A stretch of DNA of 12,385 bases from Undibacterium sp. (GTDB lineage Bacteria > Pseudomonadota > Gammaproteobacteria > Burkholderiales > Burkholderiaceae_D), in NCBI GenBank assembly GCA_019752975.1, contig JAIELM010000345.1, forward strand, positions 1-12,385. The letters are read 5' to 3'. The position numbers were made by a program, and so were the translations under genes. The notes beneath the pieces were generated by a model. It saw only the letters and a list, made by a program, of their open reading frames with translations, had not been told where the DNA came from and ran no database searches. Shown one piece after another: positions 1-11,966 of the stretch. The first letter of the stretch is position 1; every line of letters begins with the position of its first letter.

Positions 1-597
1 TGCAAGTCCGGCCGCGCCAGCTCCGATGACGCAGACCGGCATTTCGCCCGGCTTTGCAATGGCTGCCGCCGTCGGGACTTCTGCTTGTTCCAACGCCCGC
101 ACCTCGATTTTTATGCGAGTTCTCAATAAAAGCACTTCGAGTATAAAAAAAACGCTTGCGCTGATGTAGGCCATATGTAACATGGGAATACTGATAATTT
201 CCATACATACACCTAACCAATTGGGATGCCTGATATGGGCAAATATCCCTGTTCGTACGCGCGGCCTACCAGGGACAACGGTGGTTGGTAAAGTCCAACG
301 TTGTCCCAATGCGTGCATGGAGGCTAAGCGCAATGCCAGCGCCAACACGGAAACTAAGGCGGCTGCGATTGCAAAGGAGAGAGAGAAGTTGCGCTGTAAT
401 AGCCAAACCTCACACAACATACTGACAATCCAAGCACTGCGTAACAAAATATTGAGTAGACCCATACCGCTAGCATCAACAATTCTTGCACCTTGTAATA
501 ACAGTGCTTGAACATGTCGCTTACTGATAACGGCAAGGAAAATTAATTCTAGTGCGACCAGCGCCACTATCCATGTGAAAATTTGACGGTAATCCAT
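1..597 (-). CDS. Isoprenylcysteine methyltransferase-like domain fused to FAD-dependent oxidoreductase (partial, runs off left edge)
   Basis: I translated this frame by hand from ATG 597 to base 1: 199 codons with no stop, so the 3' end lies outside the window. Residues 1-160 look like an integral-membrane methyltransferase of the ICMT/PEMT type. There are hydrophobic segments near 6-24, 46-64, 72-92 and 134-158, and a conserved core LGQRWT (97-102) followed by RHPNWLG (123-129) and Glu133, the usual SAM-binding region. After a short Ala/Pro-rich linker the same frame enters PVCVIGAGAAGLA (187-199), a GxGxxG dinucleotide-binding start typical of FAD monooxygenases. The start codon lies one base after the polyketide synthase stop, so translation is probably coupled. 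Likely roles, inferred from similar partners of type III synthases: O-methylation and ring hydroxylation of the alkyl-aromatic product at the membrane. Met186 could be an internal start giving a separate flavoprotein, but no stop separates the two parts. Confidence 0.85.
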   Translation of the reverse strand, partial: MDYRQIFTWIVALVALELIFLAVISKRHVQALLLQGARIVDASGMGLLNILLRSAWIVSMLCEVWLLQRNFSLSFAIAAALVSVLALALRLASMHALGQRWTLPTTVVPGRPRVRTGIFAHIRHPNWLGVCMEIISIPMLHMAYISASVFFILEVLLLRTRIKIEVRALEQAEVPTAAAIAKPGEMPVCVIGAGAAGLA

Positions 598-598
598 T

Positions 599-1744
599 TT
601 AGTTCCAACCAACCAATACCGCTTCTTGAGAAAAGCCTGGCCCCATTGCGACAATCATGCCTTTGCTGCCAGCCTGTGGGCGTTTGTTTTTGAGGGTTTG
701 ATCCAACATGTAAAGAATAGTCGCCGATGAGATGTTGCCGACCTTTCTTAAGGTGTCACGACTGCCTTGCATTTTTTCCTTAGGAAGATTAAACGCCGAT
801 TCGGCGGCATCCATGATTTTGGGACCTCCCGGATGTAAGGTCCATTCGTCAATGTCTTCGCTACTTAATTTAAATTGTTTGAGCAATGGTTCGATCACGC
901 TCTTTAGTCCTGCGCCAACAAAAGTTTTGACTTCAGGTCTCAAAATATTCCGCATCCCGTCATTGAGTACATCGAGTCCCATAATGTGCTCGGTATCCGG
1001 TATCCAGTTTGAGCGATTAGCAAACACGCTGATCGCTGCGGTTTTAGCTAAAGGATGCTCGTCTCCAACCATCAATAATGCGCCAGAGCCATCACCAAAT
1101 AATGCTGCAGTGACGATGGACATCACCACTTCGTGATATTGCGAGGTGTCACTCTTAAGACTACGGATTTGGTTGAGTAAATCGGTTTGTACTGAACCCT
1201 GCCATAAACCCGAGGACAACTCGCAAGAAATAAGGATCAAGGCTTCGGTCGGATGGCTAGCTAGATAATCTGCTGCGCGGCTGATACCGGCCACGCCGGC
1301 CATGCAACCCAAACCTGCCAGGGGCATGCGTTTGGTATGCGGGGCAAAAGCGACCCGATTCATTAATCTAGCGCACATACTAGGTACGGTTGGTGTCAGC
1401 GTTACAGAGACAATTTGTGCGATGTCGGTCCCCTTTAGTCCGCTGGCTTCTAGCAAGTTTCTGACATTTATTTCTGATTGTTGTACGCAGGTTTCGATGG
1501 CATCTTCAATCGATTTTCCCATTTTTCCACCGTTGCAAAAATCCTCAACTGGAAAGCGAAAATGCCGACCATCGATCTCTACATTTTTAAATAGACTGCG
1601 CACCGATTCAATAGGAAAATCTAAATCGTTGCTGGTCAAAAAATCACAGATGGTGTCGGCTAATGTAGTCTGCGCATAATATTGACCGGGAAAGGACGAG
1701 GACGAGGCGACGATATGCGCTTTGGGTAGGGCTTGATTAAACAC
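599..1744 (-). CDS. Type III polyketide synthase (chalcone/stilbene synthase-like, alkylresorcinol or alkylpyrone type)
   Basis: This 381-residue protein has the normal length and fold markers of a bacterial type III polyketide synthase. The nucleophile Cys147 sits in GLGCMAGVAG. The other triad members are His304 (WTLHPGGPKI) and Asn337 (RKVGNISSAT), and the C-terminal glycine loop is AMGPGF (366-371). The family extends an acyl starter with malonyl-CoA by decarboxylative condensation and cyclises the chain to a resorcinol, pyrone or acylphloroglucinol. The upstream acyl-AMP ligase/ACP gene suggests that the starter is a fatty acyl chain delivered from a carrier protein; that is inference. 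The start is GTG at 1744, five bases after the preceding stop and with only a weak Shine-Dalgarno, which suggests translational coupling. No ATG exists before the conserved N-terminal core. The family is certain; the product is not. Confidence 0.95.
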   Translation of the reverse strand: MFNQALPKAHIVASSSSFPGQYYAQTTLADTICDFLTSNDLDFPIESVRSLFKNVEIDGRHFRFPVEDFCNGGKMGKSIEDAIETCVQQSEINVRNLLEASGLKGTDIAQIVSVTLTPTVPSMCARLMNRVAFAPHTKRMPLAGLGCMAGVAGISRAADYLASHPTEALILISCELSSGLWQGSVQTDLLNQIRSLKSDTSQYHEVVMSIVTAALFGDGSGALLMVGDEHPLAKTAAISVFANRSNWIPDTEHIMGLDVLNDGMRNILRPEVKTFVGAGLKSVIEPLLKQFKLSSEDIDEWTLHPGGPKIMDAAESAFNLPKEKMQGSRDTLRKVGNISSATILYMLDQTLKNKRPQAGSKGMIVAMGPGFSQEAVLVGWN

Positions 1745-1749
1745 GATGA

Positions 1750-4700
1750 TTATCCATTCACAGTATTGACATTGTTGACATTGGAGGGAATTACACTAAG
1801 TTGGCGAGCATTGTCTTTCAGTCGTTTAAGCGACCATAAAGAAGCCATGACAGATTCAGAAGGCACACCAAAATCAAGTAGGCAAGCGATTTCGTTGACG
1901 CCAATTGCGTGCAGTTTTTGAACCATGGGGAGGCAGGTTTCTGGTGTACCGCACAACGATTGCGAACGTAGATAACGTTGCAGCGCGAATTCCAATACTT
2001 GCGCTTTTTGTTCAGAGCTGAGGTTCTCAAGTTTGTCAGATTTTTGACGCCATAGGTCTACCGAATCTTCCAAATATTTCAGCATAGGGTCACGCACCCG
2101 CGCTACCGTACCTTCCAGGTCTTCTCCAACAAAAGTATGCAGCATCAGCGTCACTTGCCCAGTGTGTGGATTATGTCCGTGCTCGGCACGAGCGCGACGG
2201 TAGGCTAGAATTTTCACAGCGAGCTCGTCCGCATCTTGAAACAGCAATGCCGTCAGTACGTTGGCACCACTTGCACCTGCTTCGGCAAAACGATCAGGGC
2301 CGCCCGAACAGGTGATCCATGTAGCTAATTGTGTTTGCTGCGGCGGAGGGAAAATGCCGATCGCAGCTACTTCGCCTAAGCCATTAGAGCGAGCGATTTT
2401 TTCACCACGCCACAAGGCTTTGATATCAGTAATTCCTTGATACATGGTTGGTAGTCGACTGGCATAATTTTGTGGTGCCAATACAAAATCATTGGGATTC
2501 CAGCCTTGTCCAAAGGCCAGATCTACCCGTCCGTGCGACAAATTGTCTACGACGCTCCACTCTTCGGCTACGCGCAAGGGATCATGCAAAGGAAGAATCA
2601 CGCTACCAGCTCGTATTCTTATCTTACTGGTCTTAACGGCTACTGCCGCTGCTAGCACCGCAGGATTGGGATAAAGCCCGCCAAAACGATGAAAATGACG
2701 CTCAGGAATCCAGATCGCTTGAAAGCCGTTTTTATCGCCAAACTCTACGCTTGAGAGTAATAGATCATATTTGTGCTGTTGTCGTTCTTCTGCGTCGCTG
2801 GAAAAAAACATCATACTAAATTGCATACCACCGTCGAAATTCAATTCAAACGCAGGTGGCGCACTGCTGACATTTTTTGAAATTAACAATGGATTTACGC
2901 TTGTTGACGCATGCAATGGTACTTGTTTTTGTTCGCCCTTTTGCTCTTGTTTTTGCATGTGAATATTCACTGTACTGATATTTTTAAGGGCAGTGTGATG
3001 CAAAGTTTGATCTTCAATTTGGCGAGCGATATCTTTGACTGTGAGTCCGTCAAAGAAGTGTTCTATGGTGAAAGTCCGTTGATAGGTGCTTTCGAACTTA
3101 TGGCTTAATTCCAATTGTTTAAGCGAGTCTATACCCTGCTCAATCAAGGGCAAATCCATCTTCAAAGTGGCTGGATAAATATCGATAATTTTGGCAATAG
3201 CTTCACGTAAATCACGCTCTAAAGGTGTGTCTTCGCTAAGATAAGCAAGGCTATTTTTATCAGCTTGGTCAAATTGATTGTCCTTGGCGTGTTCTTGGTA
3301 ACAGGCGATGGCTTCAAGTTCATTCGCAAGAACCATATTCTTTATTTTGGAGCGTTGCACCTTGCCGCTGCTGGTCTTAGGTAGATGTTGTGGCTGGATA
3401 AAAATAATCCTGTGAACTTGCAATTGAAAATGGAGGGTGATTGACTTACGAATGGCATCCGACGCGATGATGGGGTCAAATGCTTTGAGGCTGGTACGTT
3501 TAACTTCTTGGACTATCACTAATTTACTACTACCGTCGACTTCGATTTCGAATGCGGCGTTGGCGTCGATACGCAAATCCTCATGACTCTCGGCTGCAAT
3601 TTGCTCAATATCCTGTGGGTAATAGTTGCGACCTCGGATAATAATCACATCCTTAAGTCTACCGGTAATGAAAAGGTGTCCGTCACTAAAAAACCCAAGG
3701 TCCCCAGTACGTAAGTAATGTTGGCGATCTGAAGTTGAGTCCTCTGACGTATCAGCCAGTTGCGCGAACACCCTCTGGTTTAACTCGTCTTGATTCCAAT
3801 AACCACCACAAACACTAGCACCTCGTATCCAGATTTCGCCAACCTGATTTGGCCCGCAAAGTTGTCTCGTTTGATGGTCAACTATCCGTGCCACATGATG
3901 GTCAATTATATGACCACAACTCACTATGCTGGTGCCATCTTCGCTTGCTCTAGCTGCGCTGACAATGCGATTGTCTTCTAAAGAGCGCTTACTAATATGA
4001 CGCACCAAAGGGATGCTATCGATCTTGCACACTGAGACCAATAATGAAGACTCAGCCATTCCATAACAGGGCTGGAACGCACTACGATCAAAATGACAGG
4101 TATAAAATTTCTCAGAAAATTGTTCAATGACACTTGCTCGAACTGGTTCGGCACCATTAAACGCAATTTTCCATGTACTCAGATCCAATTGCTCGAGTTC
4201 ACTAGGAGAAATGCGATCGGCACATAATTTATAAGCAAAATTAGGACCGCCACTGATACTCGCTTTATAACGACTGATCGCAGCTAACCAACGTAATGGC
4301 TCCTGCACAAAATCTTGCGGGGACATGAAATACAGCTGCCCTCCCCCATACAAAGTGCCAAGCACGTTACCGATCAAACCCATATCGTGGTATAGCGGGA
4401 GCCAACCGACGGTCACGGTCTCTTTATTGATCCCGAATTGGTGTTGAATTTGCGAGAGATTGGCCATTAAATTGGCGTGGCTGAGCATCACGCCTTTGGG
4501 TGCGCCAGTGGAGCCTGAGGTGTATTGAAGCATGGCGATGGCACTGGCGGGTACGACTGGCAGGGATTCATGTGGCGAAATTACATCATCAAAATCCAAG
4601 ACCAGCCACGTCGGGCGAGTACAAAGTTCGCTGGTTGCAAATTTAGCATTTACACGCTTCTTGATTTCTTCGGTCGCTAAGACGAATTTGGGTGAGCAAT

Positions 4701-5043
4701 CTTTCACTATTCCGTCGAGCACACTGCTACTTCGGACGGGCGGATAAGTAGGAACGGCAATCGCTCCAACATATAGACAAGCCCAAAAGGCGGTAATGAA
4801 TTCCAAACCAGATGGAAATAGTAAAAGAACTCTGTCTCCAATTTGGCAATCCTGTCGCTTTAGTTGCATTGCAATATTTTTTGCAGAGTCATGTAGCTTT
4901 TGGTAGCTAATTCGCTGCTCTTTTTCACCATGAGCCTGCAAAAATACATAGGCATTCTGTTTCGCCTGTTGTAGCGCATGGCATTGAAGTACCTCTATGA
5001 GGGTTTGGCAATTGTCAATCGATTGCATGGATTTAGCGGACAT
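1750..5043 (-). CDS. Fatty acyl-AMP ligase - acyl carrier protein - luciferase-like monooxygenase fusion
   Basis: This 1097-residue protein has three parts. Residues 1-585 are an adenylate-forming ligase of the FAAL type: P-loop YTSGSTGAPKGV (174-185), PLYHDMGLIG (216-225), CYGMAES (326-332), YLRTGDLGF (443-451), and the late lysine motif PKTSSGKVQR with Lys561. The VSCGHII stretch near 374-380 is characteristic of FAALs. Residues about 605-680 are an acyl carrier protein with the phosphopantetheine Ser640 in EQGIDSLKQLE. A Gln/Ser-rich linker (about 681-735) leads to a luciferase-like FMN monooxygenase (about 738-1075) with FSMMFFSSD, IPERHFHRFGGLYPNP and DLAFGQGWNP, as in the domains embedded in PKS/NRPS lines. 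Likely job: activate a fatty acid as acyl-AMP, load it on the in-cis carrier, oxidise it, and hand it to the downstream type III synthase. ATG 5043 has AGGAAA eight bases upstream. The Asn/Val tail is low complexity. Domain calls are firm; site of oxidation unknown. Confidence 0.93.
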   Translation of the reverse strand: MSAKSMQSIDNCQTLIEVLQCHALQQAKQNAYVFLQAHGEKEQRISYQKLHDSAKNIAMQLKRQDCQIGDRVLLLFPSGLEFITAFWACLYVGAIAVPTYPPVRSSSVLDGIVKDCSPKFVLATEEIKKRVNAKFATSELCTRPTWLVLDFDDVISPHESLPVVPASAIAMLQYTSGSTGAPKGVMLSHANLMANLSQIQHQFGINKETVTVGWLPLYHDMGLIGNVLGTLYGGGQLYFMSPQDFVQEPLRWLAAISRYKASISGGPNFAYKLCADRISPSELEQLDLSTWKIAFNGAEPVRASVIEQFSEKFYTCHFDRSAFQPCYGMAESSLLVSVCKIDSIPLVRHISKRSLEDNRIVSAARASEDGTSIVSCGHIIDHHVARIVDHQTRQLCGPNQVGEIWIRGASVCGGYWNQDELNQRVFAQLADTSEDSTSDRQHYLRTGDLGFFSDGHLFITGRLKDVIIIRGRNYYPQDIEQIAAESHEDLRIDANAAFEIEVDGSSKLVIVQEVKRTSLKAFDPIIASDAIRKSITLHFQLQVHRIIFIQPQHLPKTSSGKVQRSKIKNMVLANELEAIACYQEHAKDNQFDQADKNSLAYLSEDTPLERDLREAIAKIIDIYPATLKMDLPLIEQGIDSLKQLELSHKFESTYQRTFTIEHFFDGLTVKDIARQIEDQTLHHTALKNISTVNIHMQKQEQKGEQKQVPLHASTSVNPLLISKNVSSAPPAFELNFDGGMQFSMMFFSSDAEERQQHKYDLLLSSVEFGDKNGFQAIWIPERHFHRFGGLYPNPAVLAAAVAVKTSKIRIRAGSVILPLHDPLRVAEEWSVVDNLSHGRVDLAFGQGWNPNDFVLAPQNYASRLPTMYQGITDIKALWRGEKIARSNGLGEVAAIGIFPPPQQTQLATWITCSGGPDRFAEAGASGANVLTALLFQDADELAVKILAYRRARAEHGHNPHTGQVTLMLHTFVGEDLEGTVARVRDPMLKYLEDSVDLWRQKSDKLENLSSEQKAQVLEFALQRYLRSQSLCGTPETCLPMVQKLHAIGVNEIACLLDFGVPSESVMASLWSLKRLKDNARQLSVIPSNVNNVNTVNG
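1766..1783 (-). repeat. 9-bp tandem duplication in the 3' end of the FAAL gene
   Basis: TTGACATTG occurs twice head to tail on the plus strand. On the coding strand it encodes two copies of Asn-Val-Asn in the C-terminal tail, followed by a degenerate third Thr-Val-Asn. It lies beyond the monooxygenase fold and next to the stop codon, so it is probably neutral length variation. Confidence 0.8.
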
Positions 5044-5188
5044 AATTAGTTTCCTAAATTTTATTTGACTGCATTTTGCTGCAATCGCATAATAACATCG
5101 AAAATAACTAATTAACTAGTAATATTCAACATATATAAGAAATATATTTTTTAATTTTGGATTTAACCCACATAATATTGATTTTCAG
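5044..5188 (-). promoter_or_regulatory. AT-rich leader and probable promoter region of the polyketide operon
   Basis: About 145 bases of very AT-rich sequence separate the FAAL start from the terminator behind it, so the operon promoter should lie here. On the minus strand a possible -35 TTGAAT is followed 17 bases later by TATTTT, a weak match. An imperfect palindrome (ACTAATTAACTAGT, plus strand, near 5107-5120) falls inside that spacer and could be an operator. AGGAAA at 5050-5055 is a good Shine-Dalgarno for the start at 5043. The exact promoter is uncertain. Confidence 0.4.
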
Positions 5189-5223
5189 AAAAAAAAACCC
5201 CGCACAAAAGTGCAGGGTTTTTT
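5189..5223 (-). terminator. Rho-independent terminator after the dipeptidase gene
   Basis: The stem pairs 5198-5205 with 5210-5217 around an AAAA loop on the plus strand (CCCCGCAC / GTGCAGGG). On the minus strand all eight pairs form, one of them G-U. Reading minus, the stem is followed by a run of T (complement of the A run 5189-5197) and preceded by A's. It lies 27 bases past the dipeptidase stop and isolates the polyketide operon from read-through. The A/T flanks would also allow activity in the other direction. Confidence 0.88.
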
Positions 5224-5249
5224 ACCTAAGAAGTGAGTCTCACTTCATC

Positions 5250-6590
5250 TTACTTTTTTGCTTGCATACTCTGCGCAACTTTTTCGACTTCACTCATCAC
5301 ACGCAATAGATTTCCACTCCAGAGTTGTGCGATTTGCGCTTCGGTGTAACCTCGACGAACCAGTTCTAATGTGACATTGAACGTCTCGCCCGCATGATTC
5401 CATCCATCGATACCGCCGCCGCCATCAAAATCAGACGAAATGCCGACATGATCGAGGCCGATTTTTTTCACTGCATAATCTATATGATCGACTAAGTCTT
5501 TTACACTAGCACGACTCGGTGGAGGAAAGGCGGCGTCGAGTTGCTCGACGCGCTTGATGATTTGTTCTCTTTGTTCCTCACTGATGCCACCTACAGGACC
5601 ACGCTTTAGAGCGGCTAAGGAAATTTCCGTTGGCAGTTTAGTTTCTTCACGTAGAGCCTTTAACGCAGCACGTCTTTCCTTACTATCGGTCTTAAGATAG
5701 CTGTTAAATCCGACCACTTGTATCACTCCGCCATTGGCTTTTAATGCCAGCAATTGCTCATCATCCATATTACGACTGACATCGGCTAGGCTGCGTACCG
5801 CTGAATGCGATGCGATGATAGGTGCTTTGGTGATTTGCAGCGTTTGCATCATCGATTCTTTAGAGGGATGCGAGACATCCACCATGATGCCAACCCGATT
5901 CATCTCGAGCACCACTTGCTTACCTAATGGGGACAGTCCATTCCATTTCCAACCGATTTGTTCGCCCGTGTTTGAATCTGAAAATTGACTATGCCCTTGA
6001 TGCGCTAGAGACATGTAACGCGCTCCTCGCTCATAGAATTGCTTTACTCGCTTAAGAGCATTTTTTTCGTCACCCAGAGGATAGGCATTTTCTACGCCTA
6101 TCAGTGCTACTTTTTTGCCTTTAGCATGAATCCGTCTAACCTCTTCTGCGGTACGCGCAAACTCAATTTGCGTAGGCGCTAACACGGTAGTCATACGTTG
6201 TATGCTTTCGAACATATTGATCGCACTATCATAAGCGCGCTTATAGCCAGCCGCCTCAAAAGCGTCTGGTTCGGTCGATTGGCCGGTATATACAATAAAA
6301 AAAGATGCATCTAGGCCGCCAGCGATCATTTTAGGTAAAGTGACTTGGTTGTCTAGATCCTGTGAATAATTACGTGAAAAGCCGAAATTATTGATGTCGA
6401 TATCATTGTGCGTGTCTAAGGTAAGTACCCGTTTATGAATGCCCTTGGCCTTACTAATAAGGACTGATTCAGCATCGGGCTTGGATTTGGTTTCTGATGC
6501 TGCTATCGCGGCGCTAGCAACGCCAGACAATAAAGCGGCGACCAGAATGGCGATGCCTAGCTTGCTGCAGGTATTTGGGTTTGGTCTCAT
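5250..6590 (-). CDS. Secreted membrane dipeptidase homologue (peptidase family M19, renal dipeptidase type)
   Basis: I chose ATG 6590 (446 residues), preceded by GAAAGAG, because it places a signal peptide at the N-terminus: a basic start, then GIAILVAALLSG, then small residues near 25-32. A 22-residue GTG-started extension is possible but would bury that signal. No lipobox is seen. M19 zinc-site residues are present: LDTHND with His61 and Asp63, GVEN with the bridging Glu167, DVSHPS with His241, ASHSA with His262, and SSDFDGG with Asp387. The C-terminal GNLLRV motif is also typical. The family hydrolyses dipeptides, including some D-amino-acid and cysteinyl dipeptides, with two zinc ions; the signal peptide points to the periplasm or outside. 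A charged helical insert at about 300-375 separates the core strands. It is followed by its own terminator, so it is not part of the polyketide operon. Substrate unknown. Confidence 0.93.
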   Translation of the reverse strand: MRPNPNTCSKLGIAILVAALLSGVASAAIAASETKSKPDAESVLISKAKGIHKRVLTLDTHNDIDINNFGFSRNYSQDLDNQVTLPKMIAGGLDASFFIVYTGQSTEPDAFEAAGYKRAYDSAINMFESIQRMTTVLAPTQIEFARTAEEVRRIHAKGKKVALIGVENAYPLGDEKNALKRVKQFYERGARYMSLAHQGHSQFSDSNTGEQIGWKWNGLSPLGKQVVLEMNRVGIMVDVSHPSKESMMQTLQITKAPIIASHSAVRSLADVSRNMDDEQLLALKANGGVIQVVGFNSYLKTDSKERRAALKALREETKLPTEISLAALKRGPVGGISEEQREQIIKRVEQLDAAFPPPSRASVKDLVDHIDYAVKKIGLDHVGISSDFDGGGGIDGWNHAGETFNVTLELVRRGYTEAQIAQLWSGNLLRVMSEVEKVAQSMQAKK

Positions 6591-6661
6591 TTTTACTCTT
6601 TCTTTGGTTGTTGCGCCATTGCTCAGCGCAATATGACTGCATTGAAATAAGTTCACTCAAT

Positions 6662-6680
6662 TTCTATCGAAAACATAGAA
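6662..6680. repeat. Short inverted repeat upstream of the dipeptidase gene
   Basis: TTCTAT and ATAGAA are perfectly complementary arms around a 7-base spacer, about 72 bases upstream of the dipeptidase start. The dyad is the right size for a dimeric regulator, but the arms are only 6 bp and AT-rich, so chance is possible. The rest of 6591-6757 holds the presumed dipeptidase leader; I see no gene there. Confidence 0.35.
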
Positions 6681-6757
6681 GGCTGAACAGTGACGCTGTT
6701 TATTTAATTTTTAGGTGGACCCAGAGATAGCTGACAGCATTCCTGCCAGAAGGTTCC

Positions 6758-7399
6758 TTAAGCCGTCGTTTCTGTACTGACGCTATCCCAATCGTCTTCA
6801 TCGTCATAGCGACACATCCAATTGACCGCCCTATGCCATTCTTTAACCATCTCCGCATTTATATTGCCCGGACTAGGTTTGTTAGTCAGAGCGGCATGGC
6901 GTACCGCCCAGTGCAGCCGATAGAGTAAATCTGACCAATCCATAATCTGGGATTTTTGCCTTACATTGATCACATCGGCTATTTTGGGCGCCTGTTGTAA
7001 TGACGGAAAATAATGCAAAGTACTTTCCAGAGAGATGGGCTTTTGGTTAAGGTGTAGCTCATCAAGTAGTCCCCCACACCATGCTAGAAAAGTAAATGCG
7101 TAACGACTAGTCCGCACCCTAGTCAAGTCATCGTCAATATCGAGGAAAAAGTCAGCCTCTTCTTGAGAAAGCGCAGACAGCAAATCATGTTGCTCAAGAT
7201 ATTGGTAACTCAACTGCTTGCGCCAACTCGGCGTAGCATGAAAAATCACCCAAAGTACGAGCAAGCGCTGTTCTAGTTCATGTGCTGAACGTAGTTTGAT
7301 TTCCTCATCGGATTCAATCACATGCAGTTGCACATTGACGCGTATGCCGCGCTTATGCAGGATAAGTTCTGAGGCTTCTTTACGGAGTTCTGGTGTCAT
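6758..7399 (-). CDS. DUF4272 domain-containing protein, function unknown
   Basis: This 213-residue protein is soluble, has no signal peptide or membrane segment, and is rich in Trp, Leu and acidic residues. It matches my recollection of DUF4272 proteins: an N-terminal helix with LRSAHELEQRLLVLW (36-50), a QEEADFF stretch (79-85), and a C-terminal region with LLYRLHWAVRHA (158-169), then KEWHRAVNWM (186-195) and an acidic end with DDWDSV. No catalytic motif is visible. ATG 7399 has only a weak purine-rich Shine-Dalgarno (GAAAAG). It lies behind the dipeptidase with a 167-base gap and is divergent from glmU, so it is probably transcribed alone or loosely with the dipeptidase. The family assignment is by eye; no function can be given. 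Confidence 0.8.
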   Translation of the reverse strand: MTPELRKEASELILHKRGIRVNVQLHVIESDEEIKLRSAHELEQRLLVLWVIFHATPSWRKQLSYQYLEQHDLLSALSQEEADFFLDIDDDLTRVRTSRYAFTFLAWCGGLLDELHLNQKPISLESTLHYFPSLQQAPKIADVINVRQKSQIMDWSDLLYRLHWAVRHAALTNKPSPGNINAEMVKEWHRAVNWMCRYDDEDDWDSVSTETTA

Positions 7400-7508
7400 G
7401 TTTGCTTTTCGATGCTTATTTCCGACTTACGCAAAATCGTGCCAATGCAAGCATTTCCTCTAATGCGCAATCTGAGGTGTACTGACGTAGACGATGCTTA
7501 AGCCCCTC

Positions 7509-7546
7509 CGCCTAACTCAGAGGCAAAACGACGCTGAGGCGTTTTT
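7509..7546 (+). terminator. Terminator-like hairpin in the glmU leader region
   Basis: CTCAG (7516-7520) pairs with CTGAG (7534-7538). CGC (7509-7511) pairs with GCG (7539-7541) across a 4-base bulge, and five T's follow at once (7542-7546). The shape is that of a plus-strand terminator, yet no plus-strand gene is visible upstream. It could be the 3' end of a small transcript or a leader attenuator if glmU is transcribed from further upstream. The bulge and 13-base loop make it imperfect. The remainder of 7400-7664 contains no gene that I can support. Confidence 0.35.
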
Positions 7547-7574
7547 GTACAAGTTCTGTTTCAAGTGCTGTTAT
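7545..7574 (+). promoter_or_regulatory. Possible sigma-70 promoter for glmU
   Basis: TTGTAC (7545-7550) is followed after 18 bases by TGTTAT (7569-7574), about 90 bases before the glmU start. Both boxes are partial matches. The -35 overlaps the T run of the hairpin just upstream. This is the best candidate that I see, but it is tentative. Confidence 0.3.
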
Positions 7575-7664
7575 CAATAGCGAGTATTCGATGATTATGC
7601 CATGCCTAGCAACACCGCCGCATGGTAAACTTTCGGCTTGAATTCTCATTTAAAGAGTGTTTTT

Positions 7665-9044
7665 ATGAATGTTGTCATTCTCGCCGCTGGCATGGGCAAA
7701 CGTATGCAATCGGCGCTACCCAAAGTCTTACACACTATCGCGGGCAAACCCATGCTAGTTCATGTGATCGAAACTGCGAAACTTCTACATGACAATCAGC
7801 ATGCAAATATTTGCGTTGTGTATGGACATGGTGGCGAACAAGTACCACTTGCCCTAACCCTGGCACTCCCCGACCTCAAACTAGCTTTTGCCAAACAAGA
7901 ACCGCAACTCGGAACTGGACACGCGGTAGCTCAGGCGATTCCATACTGGGACGATGCGGTACCGACTTTAATTTTATATGGCGATGTCCCACTGACGCGC
8001 GCATCTAGCTTGCAACGCTTAGTTGAAGCGGCCGAACACAATCAATTGGCGATTCTGACTGCGCATATGGATGATCCTAGCGGCCTAGGGCGCATCATTC
8101 GTGTCGATGGAAAGATTACGAGAATCGTCGAACAAAAAGATGCCAACGAAGACGAACGAGCGGTGACGGAAATTAATACTGGCATCATGGTTGCCCCAAC
8201 TAAGCACCTCAAGAAATGGCTCAGCAATTTATCCAATAAAAATGCCCAAGGTGAGTACTACTTGACCGACATTGTTGCAAGCGCAGTGGCTGATGGCATC
8301 ACCATCACATCAGCGCAACCCGACGCCATTTGGGAAACCTTAGGCGTCAATAGCAAAATACAACTAGCCGAGTTAGAACGCATTCATCAGAAAAACATCG
8401 CCCTTAAACTCTTGGAACAGGGAGTAACTTTGCTCGACCCCGCCCGTATTGATGTACGTGGCGAGTTGTCTTGCGGTCAGGACGTCAGTATCGACGTGGG
8501 CTGTGTTTTTGAAGGTAAAGTGGTGTTAGCCGATGGTGTCAAAATTGGTGCGCATTGTGTGATAAAAAATGCGCAGATTGGTGCCCAAAGCGAGATCAAG
8601 CCCTTTTGCCACATCGAAGAGGCACTGGTAGGAGAACTAGCACAAATCGGACCCTATGCACGCTTGCGCCCCGGCACGAACTTGGCTGAAGGGGTACATA
8701 TTGGTAATTTCGTCGAAGTCAAAAACAGCCAAATCGCTGCTCATAGCAAAGCCAATCATCTTGCCTATTTGGGCGATGCGACGATAGGTAGTCGGGTGAA
8801 TATCGGAGCGGGAACGATTACTTGCAACTACGACGGAGTAAATAAATTTCGTACCGTGATAGAAGATGACGCATTTATCGGCAGCGATAGCCAATTGATT
8901 GCACCGGTAACAGTAGGCAAAGGCGCGACTCTAGGTGCTGGAACGACCTTAAGCAAAGATGCACCGGAAGGCAAACTCACAGTCTCGCGCGCTAGGCAAG
9001 TGACACTGGAAGGCTGGCAACGGCCAGTGAAAATCAAAAAATAA
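7665..9044 (+). CDS. glmU: Bifunctional N-acetylglucosamine-1-phosphate uridyltransferase / glucosamine-1-phosphate acetyltransferase
   Basis: GlmU acetylates glucosamine-1-P with acetyl-CoA and then couples it to UTP, giving UDP-GlcNAc for peptidoglycan and LPS. The chosen start ATG 7665 gives 459 residues, close to the usual 456, and puts the nucleotidyl-transfer motif LAAGMGKRM at residues 6-14 with PKVLH at 19-23. An upstream TTG in the same frame (7638) would only add a non-conserved tail. AAAGAG precedes the start. The N-terminal domain shows GTGHAVAQA (83-91), YGDVPL with Mg-binding Asp107, and GVN with Asn229. From about 255 onward come left-handed beta-helix hexapeptides with LRPGTNL (334-340), [11 protein letters not shown] (362-372) containing the catalytic His365, and [13 protein letters not shown] (379-391). 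It is complete, with no missing key residue. It is transcribed toward the converging 29-residue ORF and regulator gene. Confidence 0.98.
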
Positions 9045-9059
9045 GAAGTATGGCGTCGA

Positions 9060-9082
9060 GGATACTGCATGACGCAGTATTC
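9060..9082 (+). terminator. Hairpin shortly after glmU, possible terminator without a T run
   Basis: ATACTGC (9062-9068) and GCAGTAT (9074-9080) pair perfectly around ATGAC, and the stem extends by a G-U and a G-C pair to 9060-9082. It begins 15 bases after the glmU stop. No T tract follows in either direction, so intrinsic termination is doubtful; it may instead protect the mRNA 3' end. A weaker TCCCC/GGGGA pair follows at about 9092-9110. The rest of 9083-9211 shows no gene. Confidence 0.4.
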
Positions 9083-9211
9083 ATGTGGTCTCCCCAGATA
9101 AGAGGGGAAGGTCGATGGACTCTCACATAAATCTCACACGAATACGACGTCTAACGCCTAGGACAATGTTACTGCTGACAGATTTTTATTACTCTTACCT
9201 AAAACTAACAA

Positions 9212-9259
9212 CGATTACTTTGCTTCGATTACTTTGCTTCGATTACTTGGCATCGATTA
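9212..9259. repeat. 14-bp tandem repeat, about 3.4 copies
   Basis: The unit CGATTACTTTGCTT occurs twice exactly (9212-9225, 9226-9239). A third copy has two changes (9240-9253) and a partial fourth is CGATTA (9254-9259). On the minus strand each full unit carries AAGTAATCG, so the array repeats the end of the small ORF, including its stop context. Fourteen is not a multiple of three, so copy-number change would shift any read-through frame. Confidence 0.92.
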
Positions 9260-9332
9260 GGTAAGTGCTAAAAGCGACTACCAAAAAAGCGAAAGTGGCG
9301 ATAACTTGTAAAGAGATGATTGCGTCGATCAT
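9243..9332 (-). CDS. Putative 29-residue single-span membrane protein
   Basis: ATG 9332 to TAA 9243 encodes 29 residues: a short acidic start MIDAIISLQ, a continuous hydrophobic stretch from about residue 9 to 25 (including VIATFAFLVVAF), and a polar end LIDAK. AAGGA stands seven bases before the ATG, the best Shine-Dalgarno of any small frame seen here. A plausible promoter lies 87-116 bases upstream. The composition suits a small inner-membrane peptide such as those that sit beside larger membrane complexes, but I do not recognise it as a known family (it does not look like KdpF or CydX). It lies between convergent glmU and the Lrp/AsnC gene, on the same strand as the regulator. It is too short for statistics; the case rests on the ribosome site, promoter and hydrophobic pattern. 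Confidence 0.6.
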   Translation of the reverse strand: MIDAIISLQVIATFAFLVVAFSTYLIDAK

Positions 9333-9418
9333 GATATTTTCCTTAATAAAATAGTGATTTAATTTAAAATGTTTGTCGCTCCACATTGAATTAGTGCTCT
9401 TGTGTTTCGACAGGAAGA

Positions 9419-9448
9419 ATCATATCAAGCCGACCAATATAAATACAA
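9419..9448 (-). promoter_or_regulatory. Possible sigma-70 promoter for the 29-residue ORF
   Basis: On the minus strand TTGTAT (9448-9443) is followed after 18 bases by TATGAT (9424-9419), a five-of-six match to the -10 consensus. A transcript would start near 9412 and have a leader of about 80 bases before the ATG at 9332. The surrounding DNA is AT-rich, so chance matches are possible. Confidence 0.42.
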
Positions 9449-9499
9449 TTTCATTTTATGATGTCGACCATTCATAAATCGTATATCTTGAAATAGTCA

Positions 9500-9520
9500 A
9501 TCATTTTTCGCGTAAATGAT
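9500..9520 (-). terminator. AT-rich hairpin directly after the Lrp/AsnC stop
   Basis: ATCATTT (9500-9506) and AAATGAT (9514-9520) are exact inverted arms around a 7-base loop, abutting the regulator stop codon at 9521. The stem is weak (mostly A-T) and no clean T run follows, so it may be a poor terminator or a stabilising 3' hairpin. Confidence 0.3.
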
Positions 9521-9985
9521 TTAGATAATTTCCGTTTTTGTCTCGAATTTACTACACAGTACAGAGAAAAAACAGCGCACATTGCGCACATTACTCTGTG
9601 TAGCGAATAATCTATGGGCAAGCGTATGATAAGCCGCCATGTCCGCCACCATAATGATGAGGATAAAATCCGGCCCTGGTGAGACGCGATAACATTGTTG
9701 CACTGCACTTTCCTTGTTGGCTAGGCGTTCAAATTCGATCAATTTCTCACTCCCTTGATGATCCAAACTGATTTCTACAATCGCGGTTAAGCCCATGCCG
9801 ATGAACTCTGGATTGAGGATCGCCACCTGTTTAACGATTATCCCCTCCTCTACTAATCGGTTGACCCGCCTTAAGCAAGTCGGTGGAGATGCGTGCACGC
9901 GAGCAGCTAGCGCTTGATTACTCAAAGTAGCGTCACTTTGCAAGCTATTCAATATGCGTTTATCAAGCTCATCTAAAATAGTCAT
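9521..9985 (-). CDS. Lrp/AsnC-family transcriptional regulator
   Basis: The chosen ATG 9985 gives 154 residues, the usual size; a TTG at 10000 would add five residues but lacks family support. GGAA lies nine bases before the ATG. Residues 1-60 form the winged helix-turn-helix: LDELDKRILNSLQ, then LSNQALAARVHASPPTCLRRV (21-41) as the DNA-contacting helices, and LVEEGII. Residues about 66-140 form the RAM ligand-binding and multimerisation domain with the typical SPGPDFILIIMVAD stretch. The family forms dimers and octamers, often responds to amino acids, and usually represses itself. The gene is divergent from glmS, so it may control glmS as well as itself. The shared intergenic region carries spaced ATTCC half-sites. 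The ligand cannot be read from the sequence. Confidence 0.95.
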   Translation of the reverse strand: MTILDELDKRILNSLQSDATLSNQALAARVHASPPTCLRRVNRLVEEGIIVKQVAILNPEFIGMGLTAIVEISLDHQGSEKLIEFERLANKESAVQQCYRVSPGPDFILIIMVADMAAYHTLAHRLFATQSNVRNVRCFFSVLCSKFETKTEII

Positions 9986-9991
9986 GATGAA

Positions 9992-10030
9992 AAATTCCAA
10001 AAATAGTTAAGGAATGAAATTAAATTCCAA
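9992..10030. promoter_or_regulatory. Putative Lrp/AsnC operator: three ATTCC/GGAAT half-sites
   Basis: AAATTCCAA occurs exactly twice, at 9992-10000 and 10022-10030, 30 bp apart (near three helical turns). An inverted GGAAT lies between them at 10011-10015. This gives ATTCC-N12-GGAAT-N8-ATTCC just upstream of the regulator start and before the glmS promoter region. The layout fits binding by an Lrp-type multimer and autoregulation; that is inference. Confidence 0.5.
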
Positions 10031-10072
10031 CCCTATCCGATATTGGACTAATCAGCCAAATTTTACAAAATT

Positions 10073-10101
10073 TTGAAAGATAATTTCATTCAAGCTAGCA
10101 T
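10073..10101 (+). promoter_or_regulatory. Probable sigma-70 promoter for glmS
   Basis: TTGAAA (10073-10078) is followed after 17 bases by TAGCAT (10096-10101), inside a short TAGCA-TAGCA-TAGTA repeat that offers alternative -10 boxes. Transcription would give a leader of about 25-30 bases. GAGG (10128-10131) stands five bases before the glmS ATG. The short leader leaves no room for a ribozyme or riboswitch. Confidence 0.5.
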
Positions 10102-10136
10102 AGCATAGTAAACTTATTTTCTCTATCGAGGTTTCT

Positions 10137-11966
10137 ATGTGTGGCATTGTCGGCGCAGTAGCACAACGTAACATCACTCCTATTTTGCTAGAAGGCCTCA
10201 AGCGCCTCGAATACCGCGGTTATGATTCCTGCGGCGTGGCCTTGCATGTGGATGGTAAATTGCAACGCTCACGCAGCACTTCACGCGTCGCAGAATTACA
10301 GTCGCAAGTCGAACAAACTAAGTTAGCAGGATTCACTGGCATCGCCCACACCCGCTGGGCAACGCATGGCGCACCCTCCTCAGCCAATGCGCACCCGCAC
10401 TTTTCTCGCGATGGCGACAACGCGCGCATCGCCTTAGTCCACAACGGCATCATAGAAAATCACGAAGAACTACGCGCTGAACTTACACAAGCTGGCTATG
10501 TATTTGAAAGCCAAACCGATACTGAAGTGATCGCCCATCTTGTCGATCACTTATATAGCGGCGATTTATTTGAGACCGTACAACAAGCGGTCAAACGACT
10601 AACAGGCGCGTATGCCATTGCCGTCTTCTGCCGCGACGAACCACACCGCGTGGTCGGTGCACGCCAAGGCTCGCCACTAATCGTCGGTGTCGGTAGAGGC
10701 GAGAACTTTCTAGCGTCCGATGCAATGGCATTGGCCGGTACCACCGATCAAATTATCTATTTAGAAGAAGGCGACGTCATCGATTTGCAATTGCAAAGGG
10801 TGTGGATCGCTGATGTGAATGGCAAACCAGTCGAACGCGAAGTGCGCACCGTGCATGCCCACACTGGCGCAGCCGAATTAGGCCCGTATCGCCACTACAT
10901 GCAAAAAGAAATCTTCGAACAAGCACGCGCTTTGGGTGACACTTTAGAAGGCATCACCAACATCATGCCCGAGTTATTTGGTGACAAAGCCTATCGCGTA
11001 TTTCAAGACATCGACAATGTGTTGATACTCGCCTGCGGCACCAGTTACTACGCAGGCATGACCGCAAAATACTGGATAGAATCTATCGCCAAAATCCCGG
11101 TCAACGTCGAGATCGCCAGCGAATACCGTTACCGCGACAGCGTGCCAAATCCTAAGAGCCTAGTCGTCACGATTTCACAAAGCGGCGAAACCGCCGATAC
11201 GCTAGCGGCACTAAAACACGCTCGCGGACTAGGCATGCTACACAGCTTGACCATCTGCAATGTCGCCACCAGCGCCATGGTGCGCGAATGCGAACTCGCC
11301 TACATCACACGTGCCGGTGTTGAGGTCGGCGTAGCATCGACCAAGGCTTTCACCACGCAATTAGCTGCGCTGTTTTTGTTAGCATTAACACTGGCGCAAA
11401 ACAAAGGTAGACTCAGCGAAACGCAAGAACAAGACCACATCAAAGACCTGCGTCATTTGCCAGTGGCGATTACTGCGGTGCTCGCTCTAGAACCGCAAAT
11501 CATCGCTTGGGCAGATGAATTCGCCCGCAAAGAAAATGCACTTTTCTTAGGCCGTGGCTTGCATTACCCAATCGCTTTAGAGGGTGCATTAAAACTCAAA
11601 GAAATTTCCTACATTCACGCAGAAGCCTACCCCGCAGGCGAACTCAAACATGGCCCGCTAGCTTTAGTGACCAAAGAAATGCCAGTAGTCACCGTCGCGC
11701 CAAACGACACGCTCATCGAAAAACTTAAATCGAATATGCAAGAAGTCCGCGCCCGCGGCGGTGAACTCTACGTCTTCGCCGACGCCGATTCCCGCATCAC
11801 CCCAAGCGAAGGCGTACACGTGATTCGCCTGCCAGAACACTACGGCATGTTGTCACCGATTTTGCATACGGTACCTTTGCAATTGCTGGCATATCACACG
11901 GCTTTGGCGCGGGGGACGGATGTAGATAAGCCGAGGAATTTGGCGAAGAGCGTCACTGTGGAATAG
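10137..11966 (+). CDS. glmS: Glutamine-fructose-6-phosphate aminotransferase (isomerizing), glucosamine-6-phosphate synthase
   Basis: GlmS makes glucosamine-6-P from fructose-6-P and glutamine, the first step to UDP-GlcNAc. The 609 residues equal the length of the E. coli enzyme. The start MCGIVGA exposes the nucleophile Cys2 after Met removal. The glutaminase domain shows HTRWATHG (71-78) and NGIIENH (103-109). The two sugar-isomerase (SIS) domains show ACGTSYYAG (299-307), SQSGETADT (347-355) and STKAFTTQ (401-408), then the [22 protein letters not shown] stretch (486-507) with Glu489 and His505. The C-terminal NLAKSVTVE supplies Lys604, the ring-opening and channel residue. All key residues are present. 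It is divergent from the Lrp/AsnC gene, and glmU is only 1.1 kb away on the same strand, so pathway start and end are physically linked though not in one operon. Confidence 0.99.

Follow-up and report, generated by a model that had tools for sequence, protein, structure and literature searches.

Which product is made by a compact operon of three genes at one end of contig JAIELM010000345.1 of an Undibacterium sp. (assembly GCA_019752975.1), and where does the operon come from? The window analyzed here is the whole contig of 12,385 bases, which belongs to an assembly that is 73% complete. The three open reading frames (ORFs) all lie on the minus strand and are read from position 5043 down to base 1. 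They encode a fusion of a fatty acyl-AMP ligase (FAAL), an acyl carrier protein (ACP) and a luciferase-like monooxygenase (LLM), a type III polyketide synthase (PKS), and a methyltransferase of the ICMT family that continues into the first FAD-binding motif of a flavoprotein. Judged from the families of its proteins and from their distribution, the operon is probably a horizontally transferred, minimal form of the cyanobacterial CylI/Mks-type lipid-resorcinol pathway, a reading in which we have moderate confidence.

Gene products of the operon

The type III PKS matched both chalcone/stilbene synthase profiles, with 73 bits for the C-terminal domain (PF02797) and 30.5 bits for the N-terminal domain (PF00195), the cut-off being 27 for both. 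A Cys-His-Asn catalytic triad is the mark of type III PKSs, and it was present as Cys147 in GLGCMAG, His304 in LHPGGP and Asn337 in GNISS. The DpgA model gave 141 bits, under its cut-off of 425. Among the solved structures compared, which did not include SrsA and HidC, CylI was nearest with 385 bits, followed by Pks11 with 207 bits and the next chain with 99 bits. The earlier note, made from the DNA alone, had proposed that the operon makes an alkyl-resorcinol, quinone or pyrone, and homology supports a type III PKS of the lipid-resorcinol type. The CylI clade, with CabI, CylI and MerE, has alkylresorcinols as its known products (PMC8086630), and a resorcinol is favored over a pyrone as the predicted product of the PKS.

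The 1097-residue protein scored 234 bits for AMP-binding, 30 bits for PP-binding and 141 bits for Bac_luciferase. The solved chains closest to its ligase domain were FAALs (7r7f, 3kxw and FadD32). The best single-function NCBIfam models were also FAALs, but they stayed under their cut-off (408 of 600). The domain profiles and the nearest structures thus agree with the previous suggestion that a FAAL loads the fatty acid onto the carrier. The LLM reached 460.8 bits with TIGR04020 (MupA/Atu3671 LLM), above the curated cut-off of 244.45, and its nearest solved relative was PuwE with 361 bits, the next one scoring 81. Fusions of this kind are widespread, the FAAL, ACP and LLM domains being found in most of 120 listed proteins, many of them cyanobacterial by name.

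The third protein scored 66.7 bits for ICMT (PF04140, cut-off 24), while the NCBIfam ICMT equivalog gave 27 bits, under its cut-off of 160. About 14 residues of the flavoprotein are visible, up to the FAD motif GAGAAGLA, and then the contig ends. The fragment was 45% identical over 186 residues to a Sphingomonas protein combining ICMT with a flavin-containing monooxygenase (FMO)-like domain, and its FAD motif begins at residue 192, where an alignment of eleven ICMT-FMO fusions has an invariant glycine. When the 615-residue protein of Sphingomonas glacialis (locus L023) was used as query, 68 proteins were found, nine of which (P0241-P0249) carried ICMT and FMO-like domains; P0241 is almost identical to the query. 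A further ICMT-FMO fusion was detected in Waterburya (L043). The flavoprotein part of these relatives is FMO-like (PF00743). The ICMT-flavoprotein fusion that had been read from the cut gene is therefore seen at full length in P0241-P0249, L023 and L043 and is real in these relatives.

The ORF calls also agree with the earlier description of three same-strand genes with gaps of 5 bases (1745-1749, between the first two) and 1 base (598, between the last two). Intact catalytic residues had been claimed for every visible part; this holds for the PKS triad and for Ser640 of the ACP, and because the contig ends there, it can be said of the flavoprotein only for the first FAD motif. The remainder of the third gene was sought in the genome itself. 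PF01593 gave three matches, and the Sphingomonas FMO domain matched only 40 residues around a FAD motif on contig C312. C312 was rejected as the missing half and taken as another flavoprotein. The rest of the third gene is probably absent from the assembly.

Table 1. Positions of the operon, its protein domains and the adjoining sequence in the window.
Feature	Position	Strand	Remarks
FAAL-ACP-LLM protein	1750..5043	-	1097 aa, ATG start
FAAL domain	about residues 10-580		part of the 1097-aa protein
ACP domain	about residues 611-675		serine Ser640, motif GIDSL
LLM domain	about residues 742-1076		luciferase-like monooxygenase, MupA/Atu3671 family
Type III PKS, CylI group	599..1744	-	381 aa, GTG start, Cys147-His304-Asn337
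ICMT methyltransferase and first FAD-binding motif	1..597	-	199 aa from ATG at 597; frame open at base 1
Spacer between M19 gene and operon	5044..5249	.	expected place of any operon promoter
M19 dipeptidase, DUF4272, glmU block	5250-9044		beside the operon

Phylogeny of the PKS, FAAL and LLM

Three trees were calculated. The PKS tree had 58 rows (31 of the 119 other listed proteins, 26 loci and the window), the FAAL tree 41 rows (29 listed proteins, 11 loci and the window) and the LLM tree 68 rows (64 of the 120 listed proteins, three loci with L025 left out, and the window). All three placed the window with proteins from Sphingomonas, Hyphomicrobiales and metagenomes. In the PKS tree, the window and all four alphaproteobacterial loci fell in a clade of 22 of the 58 rows (support 99/100), and the PKS was nested among CylI-like cyanobacterial rows, with the CabI-like P0065. 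The corresponding clades comprised 11 of 41 rows for the FAAL and 10 of 68 rows for the LLM (both 100/100), each with P0122-P0126, P0131 and the included alphaproteobacterial rows. Since all three clades hold the window together with alphaproteobacterial rows, the PKS, FAAL and LLM appear to have been inherited as a set.

The closest homologues of the PKS, P0002-P0016 from metagenomes and Sphingomonas, showed 60-70% identity, followed by others at 54-55% and then by mostly cyanobacterial proteins at 45-51%. Equal sizes of the longest contigs and overlapping sources were used to find proteins sharing a contig. On this basis we infer that the ICMT-FMO proteins P0243, P0245, P0246 and P0249 lie on the same contigs as the PKS homologues P0013, P0009, P0016 and P0007, respectively, and that the FAAL-ACP-LLM proteins P0122, P0123 and P0125 lie with P0003, P0002 and P0007.

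The cyanobacterial loci L041 and L043 adjoin the window clade in the PKS tree (89/87, not a strong branch, with L043 as a long row). They were considered as the source of the FAAL coupling and rejected, as their FAALs cluster with other cyanobacterial FAALs. The coupling of a FAAL to this type of PKS may have arisen more than once. The fused P0126 and P0131 adjoin unfused alphaproteobacterial LLMs, which suggests fission of the LLM gene in alphaproteobacteria, although the FAAL and LLM trees disagree on where P0131 belongs and their deepest forks are weak.

Gene order in related loci

A single scan of genome contigs yielded 69 loci, among which the 22 with at least 44% identity (L023-L044) were counted: four alphaproteobacterial loci (L023-L026, with L024-L026 closely related to one another) and 18 cyanobacterial ones. 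The remaining 47 loci (identity at most 30%) were left out of the counts; in six of them, a screen with the window proteins found a match to the PKS only.

Co-occurrence of the genes, put forward earlier as a check on the operon, was supported by their recurrence elsewhere, with the order FAAL-ACP, LLM, PKS, ICMT in all four alphaproteobacterial loci. In L023, for example, the genes lie at 6847-8907 (FAAL-ACP), 8904-9986 (LLM), about 10001-11128 (PKS) and 11134-12981 (ICMT-FMO). The LLM is a separate gene in L023-L026 and fused in the window. In 16 of the 18 cyanobacterial loci, the PKS is preceded, at a distance of less than 190 bases, by a gene with a type I PKS thioesterase, and no type I PKS match was found upstream in any of the four alphaproteobacterial loci. 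In the window this position is occupied by the FAAL-ACP-LLM gene. The other two cyanobacterial loci have a FAAL upstream, with the ACP in the FAAL protein in L041 and fused to the PKS in L043. BLAST against the open frames in the flanks of the 22 loci detected the LLM in at least four (all alphaproteobacterial), ICMT in at least 17 and FMO-like proteins in at least four; these counts are lower bounds because several loci are cut by contig ends.

Some further features of these loci were observed. Around the FAAL-ACP/LLM/PKS/ICMT set of L025, and also in L024 and L026, there are genes for a divergent S-adenosylmethionine-dependent methyltransferase and a FabF-like ketosynthase (L025:6040-6720 and 11689-12954). 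In Waterburya agarophytonicola (L043:9518-14068), the ACP at the N-terminus of the type III PKS is followed by the ICMT-FMO fusion and a protein with a glyoxalase/dioxygenase fold, with the FAAL gene upstream of the ACP-PKS and frames resembling resistance-nodulation-division (RND) transporters downstream. In Sphingomonas glacialis (L023:15326-18457), the region downstream of the cluster contains a gene for an AcrB-type RND efflux pump, and the Microcystis Mks clusters are also accompanied by RND transporters (PMC8086630).

Distribution and probable horizontal transfer

At E <=1e-40, the PKS was detected in one of 392 genomes of the family, one of 369 of the class and two of 398 of the phylum, the second of these at 30% identity. 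The three samples overlap, and each contains the genome of the window. Within the genus, 39 of 43 genomes had a match at E <=0.001, the best besides the operon's own PKS being 1.9e-10, with identities of 23-30%, as would be expected for FabH-like synthases. A PKS of the operon's type occurred in only one of the 43 genomes, that of the window itself.

The neighboring block is distributed differently. The M19 gene was found in 11 of 42 genus genomes, its own included. DUF4272 adjoins it in all 10 other genomes, and glmU comes next in nine of them, the sequence stretch of the tenth ending first. Beyond M19, at the place of the operon in the window, all seven relatives examined have other genes without a match to the operon; three of the seven share a gene pair that, going by the sequence starts, we take to be metE and its regulator. 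The simplest reading is that the operon was gained at a variable junction next to a fixed block. Contamination or a chimaeric contig was considered and judged unlikely, given that the M19-DUF4272-glmU block beside the operon is conserved in the genus and that the operon (0.43-0.48) and its neighbors (0.42-0.55) have a similar G+C content at third codon positions.

Proposed pathway and alternative readings

In the proposed pathway, the FAAL domain would adenylate a fatty acid and load it onto the fused ACP. The fused LLM would then oxygenate the ACP-bound chain, most likely at the carbon adjoining the thioester; oxidation of the chain on its carrier had also been part of the earlier inference. 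The type III PKS would accept this chain, add three malonyl units and close a resorcinol ring, and direct transfer of the chain from an ACP to the PKS is fitted by the ACP-PKS fusion in L043. A ring hydroxyl would be methylated by the ICMT domain, and the FMO-like domain, fused to ICMT in relatives, would add a further oxygen. The expected product is a methylated, oxygenated alkylresorcinol, perhaps hydroxylated at the first chain carbon.

The position proposed for the LLM follows its family. MupA hydroxylates an ACP-bound chain alpha to the thioester (PMC10952193), and LLMs have been tied to the alpha-hydroxyl of palmerolide (PMC8739492) and the 2-hydroxyl of puwainaphycin (PMC4219810). A bolder reading, possible rather than probable, is that a plain acyl chain without activation is oxygenated by the FAAL-ACP-LLM protein while bound to the carrier of this protein, and then goes straight to the type III PKS. 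The resorcinol would then be prehydroxylated at the first chain carbon, and the operon would be a compact cassette that does without a type I PKS and has spread among Pseudomonadota. If true, this would give the MupA family a new substrate class and type III PKSs a new priming route.

Several points weigh against the transferred lipid-resorcinol pathway as set out here. Base composition carries no sign of transfer, nor does it exclude it, and the case for transfer rests on distribution. The weak joint of the chemistry is that a FAAL-loaded chain has no beta-keto group, unlike the substrate class of MupA. FMO-like matches came from just four of the 22 loci, and the window shows the flavoprotein only to its first FAD motif. 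In the Hyphomicrobiales loci L024-L026, ICMT is unfused and precedes a ketosynthase gene, which means that the pathway has no fixed end. The PKS tree, finally, was built without SrsA, HidC and other characterized enzymes except the CabI-like P0065.

The absence of a beta-keto group is met by a reading that keeps the same pathway and lets the LLM act on a beta-keto intermediate: a ketosynthase, cellular or clustered, or one round of the PKS would provide this intermediate, the LLM would hydroxylate it at the alpha position, and the PKS would make the ring. We regard this as possible rather than probable. The activity of MupA was shown on a beta-keto thioester, while acetoacetyl-ACP and the free pantetheine substrate gave no product (PMC10952193), and for PuwE, which is nearest among the solved LLMs (361 bits), action after PKS extension has been proposed (PMC4219810). 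Some weight in the same direction comes from the ketosynthase gene that follows ICMT in the Hyphomicrobiales loci, but no ketosynthase match was found in the Sphingomonas locus and none was seen in the window, and the LLM is fused right behind the FAAL-loaded ACP.

It is unlikely that the PKS makes a pyrone or a resorcylic acid on which ICMT and FMO then act. Pks11, the second solved relative, is named an alpha-pyrone synthase, and a FAAL and a type III PKS are reportedly tied to alkylresorcylic acid in Myxococcus xanthus, going by the title of Hayashi's 2011 work. However, CylI scored well above Pks11 (385 vs 207 bits), and CylI is grouped with the makers of alkylresorcinols (PMC8086630).

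The operon could also continue past the contig edge into a larger cluster of the paracyclophane kind, which would include genes for a type I PKS, a halogenase and an alkylating enzyme. It shares PKS, ICMT and FMO with PmNT3 and mer (PMC11264947), and the contig ends inside it. This reading is very improbable, since in 16 of 18 cyanobacterial loci the type I PKS immediately precedes the type III PKS, at the position that FAAL-ACP-LLM occupies here, and the Sphingomonas locus has no type I PKS match within 10 kb on each side, in a search that covered the type I PKS and not CylC or CylK.

Sequence upstream of the operon

Promoters were scanned for in positions 4900-5400. Two promoter-like sites were found, both on the plus strand, against 1.7 in shuffled sequences, and no minus-strand promoter was called in this range. 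Visual inspection of the minus strand 3' of the M19 gene (window ~5190-5220) showed a G+C-rich hairpin with a T run behind it. It looks like a terminator between the M19 gene and the operon and was absent from the listing of the promoter scan.

Comparison with known systems

The Streptomyces SrsABC set, compared by gene content and not by sequence, shares the logic of a PKS with a methyltransferase and a flavoprotein. It is not known to have a FAAL or an LLM, and SrsC is a flavoprotein of a class other than FMO-like. The earlier note had taken this set as its comparison, and the data point elsewhere: the nearest solved PKS is CylI, in a comparison from which SrsA itself was absent, and the flavoprotein of the relatives belongs to PF00743. 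In the Myxococcus xanthus system, a FAAL reportedly feeds a type III PKS, as proposed here, and the product class named is alkylresorcylic acid. The hierridin (hidABC) and planctomycete operons follow a similar logic (PMC10896814, PMC8086630). Compared by description only, HidC falls in another PKS clade (PMC8086630), and the portions of these sources at hand describe no FAAL-ACP-LLM protein.

The cylindrocyclophane, carbamidocyclophane and merocyclophane clusters (CylI, CabI, MerE, MerF) share with the operon the PKS group, the FAAL start and, in mer, an ICMT-type gene (PMC11264947). Their own features are elongation by type I PKSs, the CylC halogenase and alkylation by CylK, which gives ring dimers (PMC8086630). 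No such elongation, halogenase or alkylation genes were visible in the window, though no sequence search was aimed at CylC or CylK. In [7.7]paracyclophane-type clusters the type III PKS is immediately preceded by a type I PKS, an arrangement found neither in the window nor in L023-L026. A review of FAALs gives cylindrocyclophane as a case of a FAAL interfacing with a type III PKS, with a type I PKS in between (PMC11837247).

The orphan Mks/PmNT3 cluster of Microcystis shares a FAAL with an ACP, a CylI-group PKS, an ICMT-type methyltransferase and an FMO-like flavoprotein (PMC8086630, PMC11264947). It differs in having two type I PKS genes between FAAL-ACP and the type III PKS, an acyl-CoA dehydrogenase domain, and ICMT and FMO as separate genes, and the excerpts describing it name no LLM (PMC8086630, PMC11264947). 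The earlier note gave this exact gene set as not known to be described. No report of FAAL-ACP-LLM, type III PKS and ICMT-FMO together was found in topic searches of the open-licence literature, while the combination of PKS, ICMT and FMO is already in print for the orphan Microcystis cluster (PMC11264947).

The loci of Sphingomonas glacialis (L023) and the Hyphomicrobiales (L024-L026) share with the window the gene order and the PKS, FAAL and LLM clades, with the ICMT-FMO fusion in L023. They differ from the window in their separate LLM and, in L024-L026, in an ICMT alone with a ketosynthase gene next. The gene set of the window is small enough to be expressed as a whole, and this would make two points directly testable: whether a FAAL-loaded carrier suffices to prime CylI-group enzymes, and whether the MupA family needs a beta-keto group. 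According to a statement in PMC8086630, no hybrid type I/type III system was known from organisms other than cyanobacteria; the present data place type III synthases of this group in Pseudomonadota (also in Sphingomonas and Hyphomicrobiales), with a FAAL-ACP-monooxygenase replacing the type I PKS.

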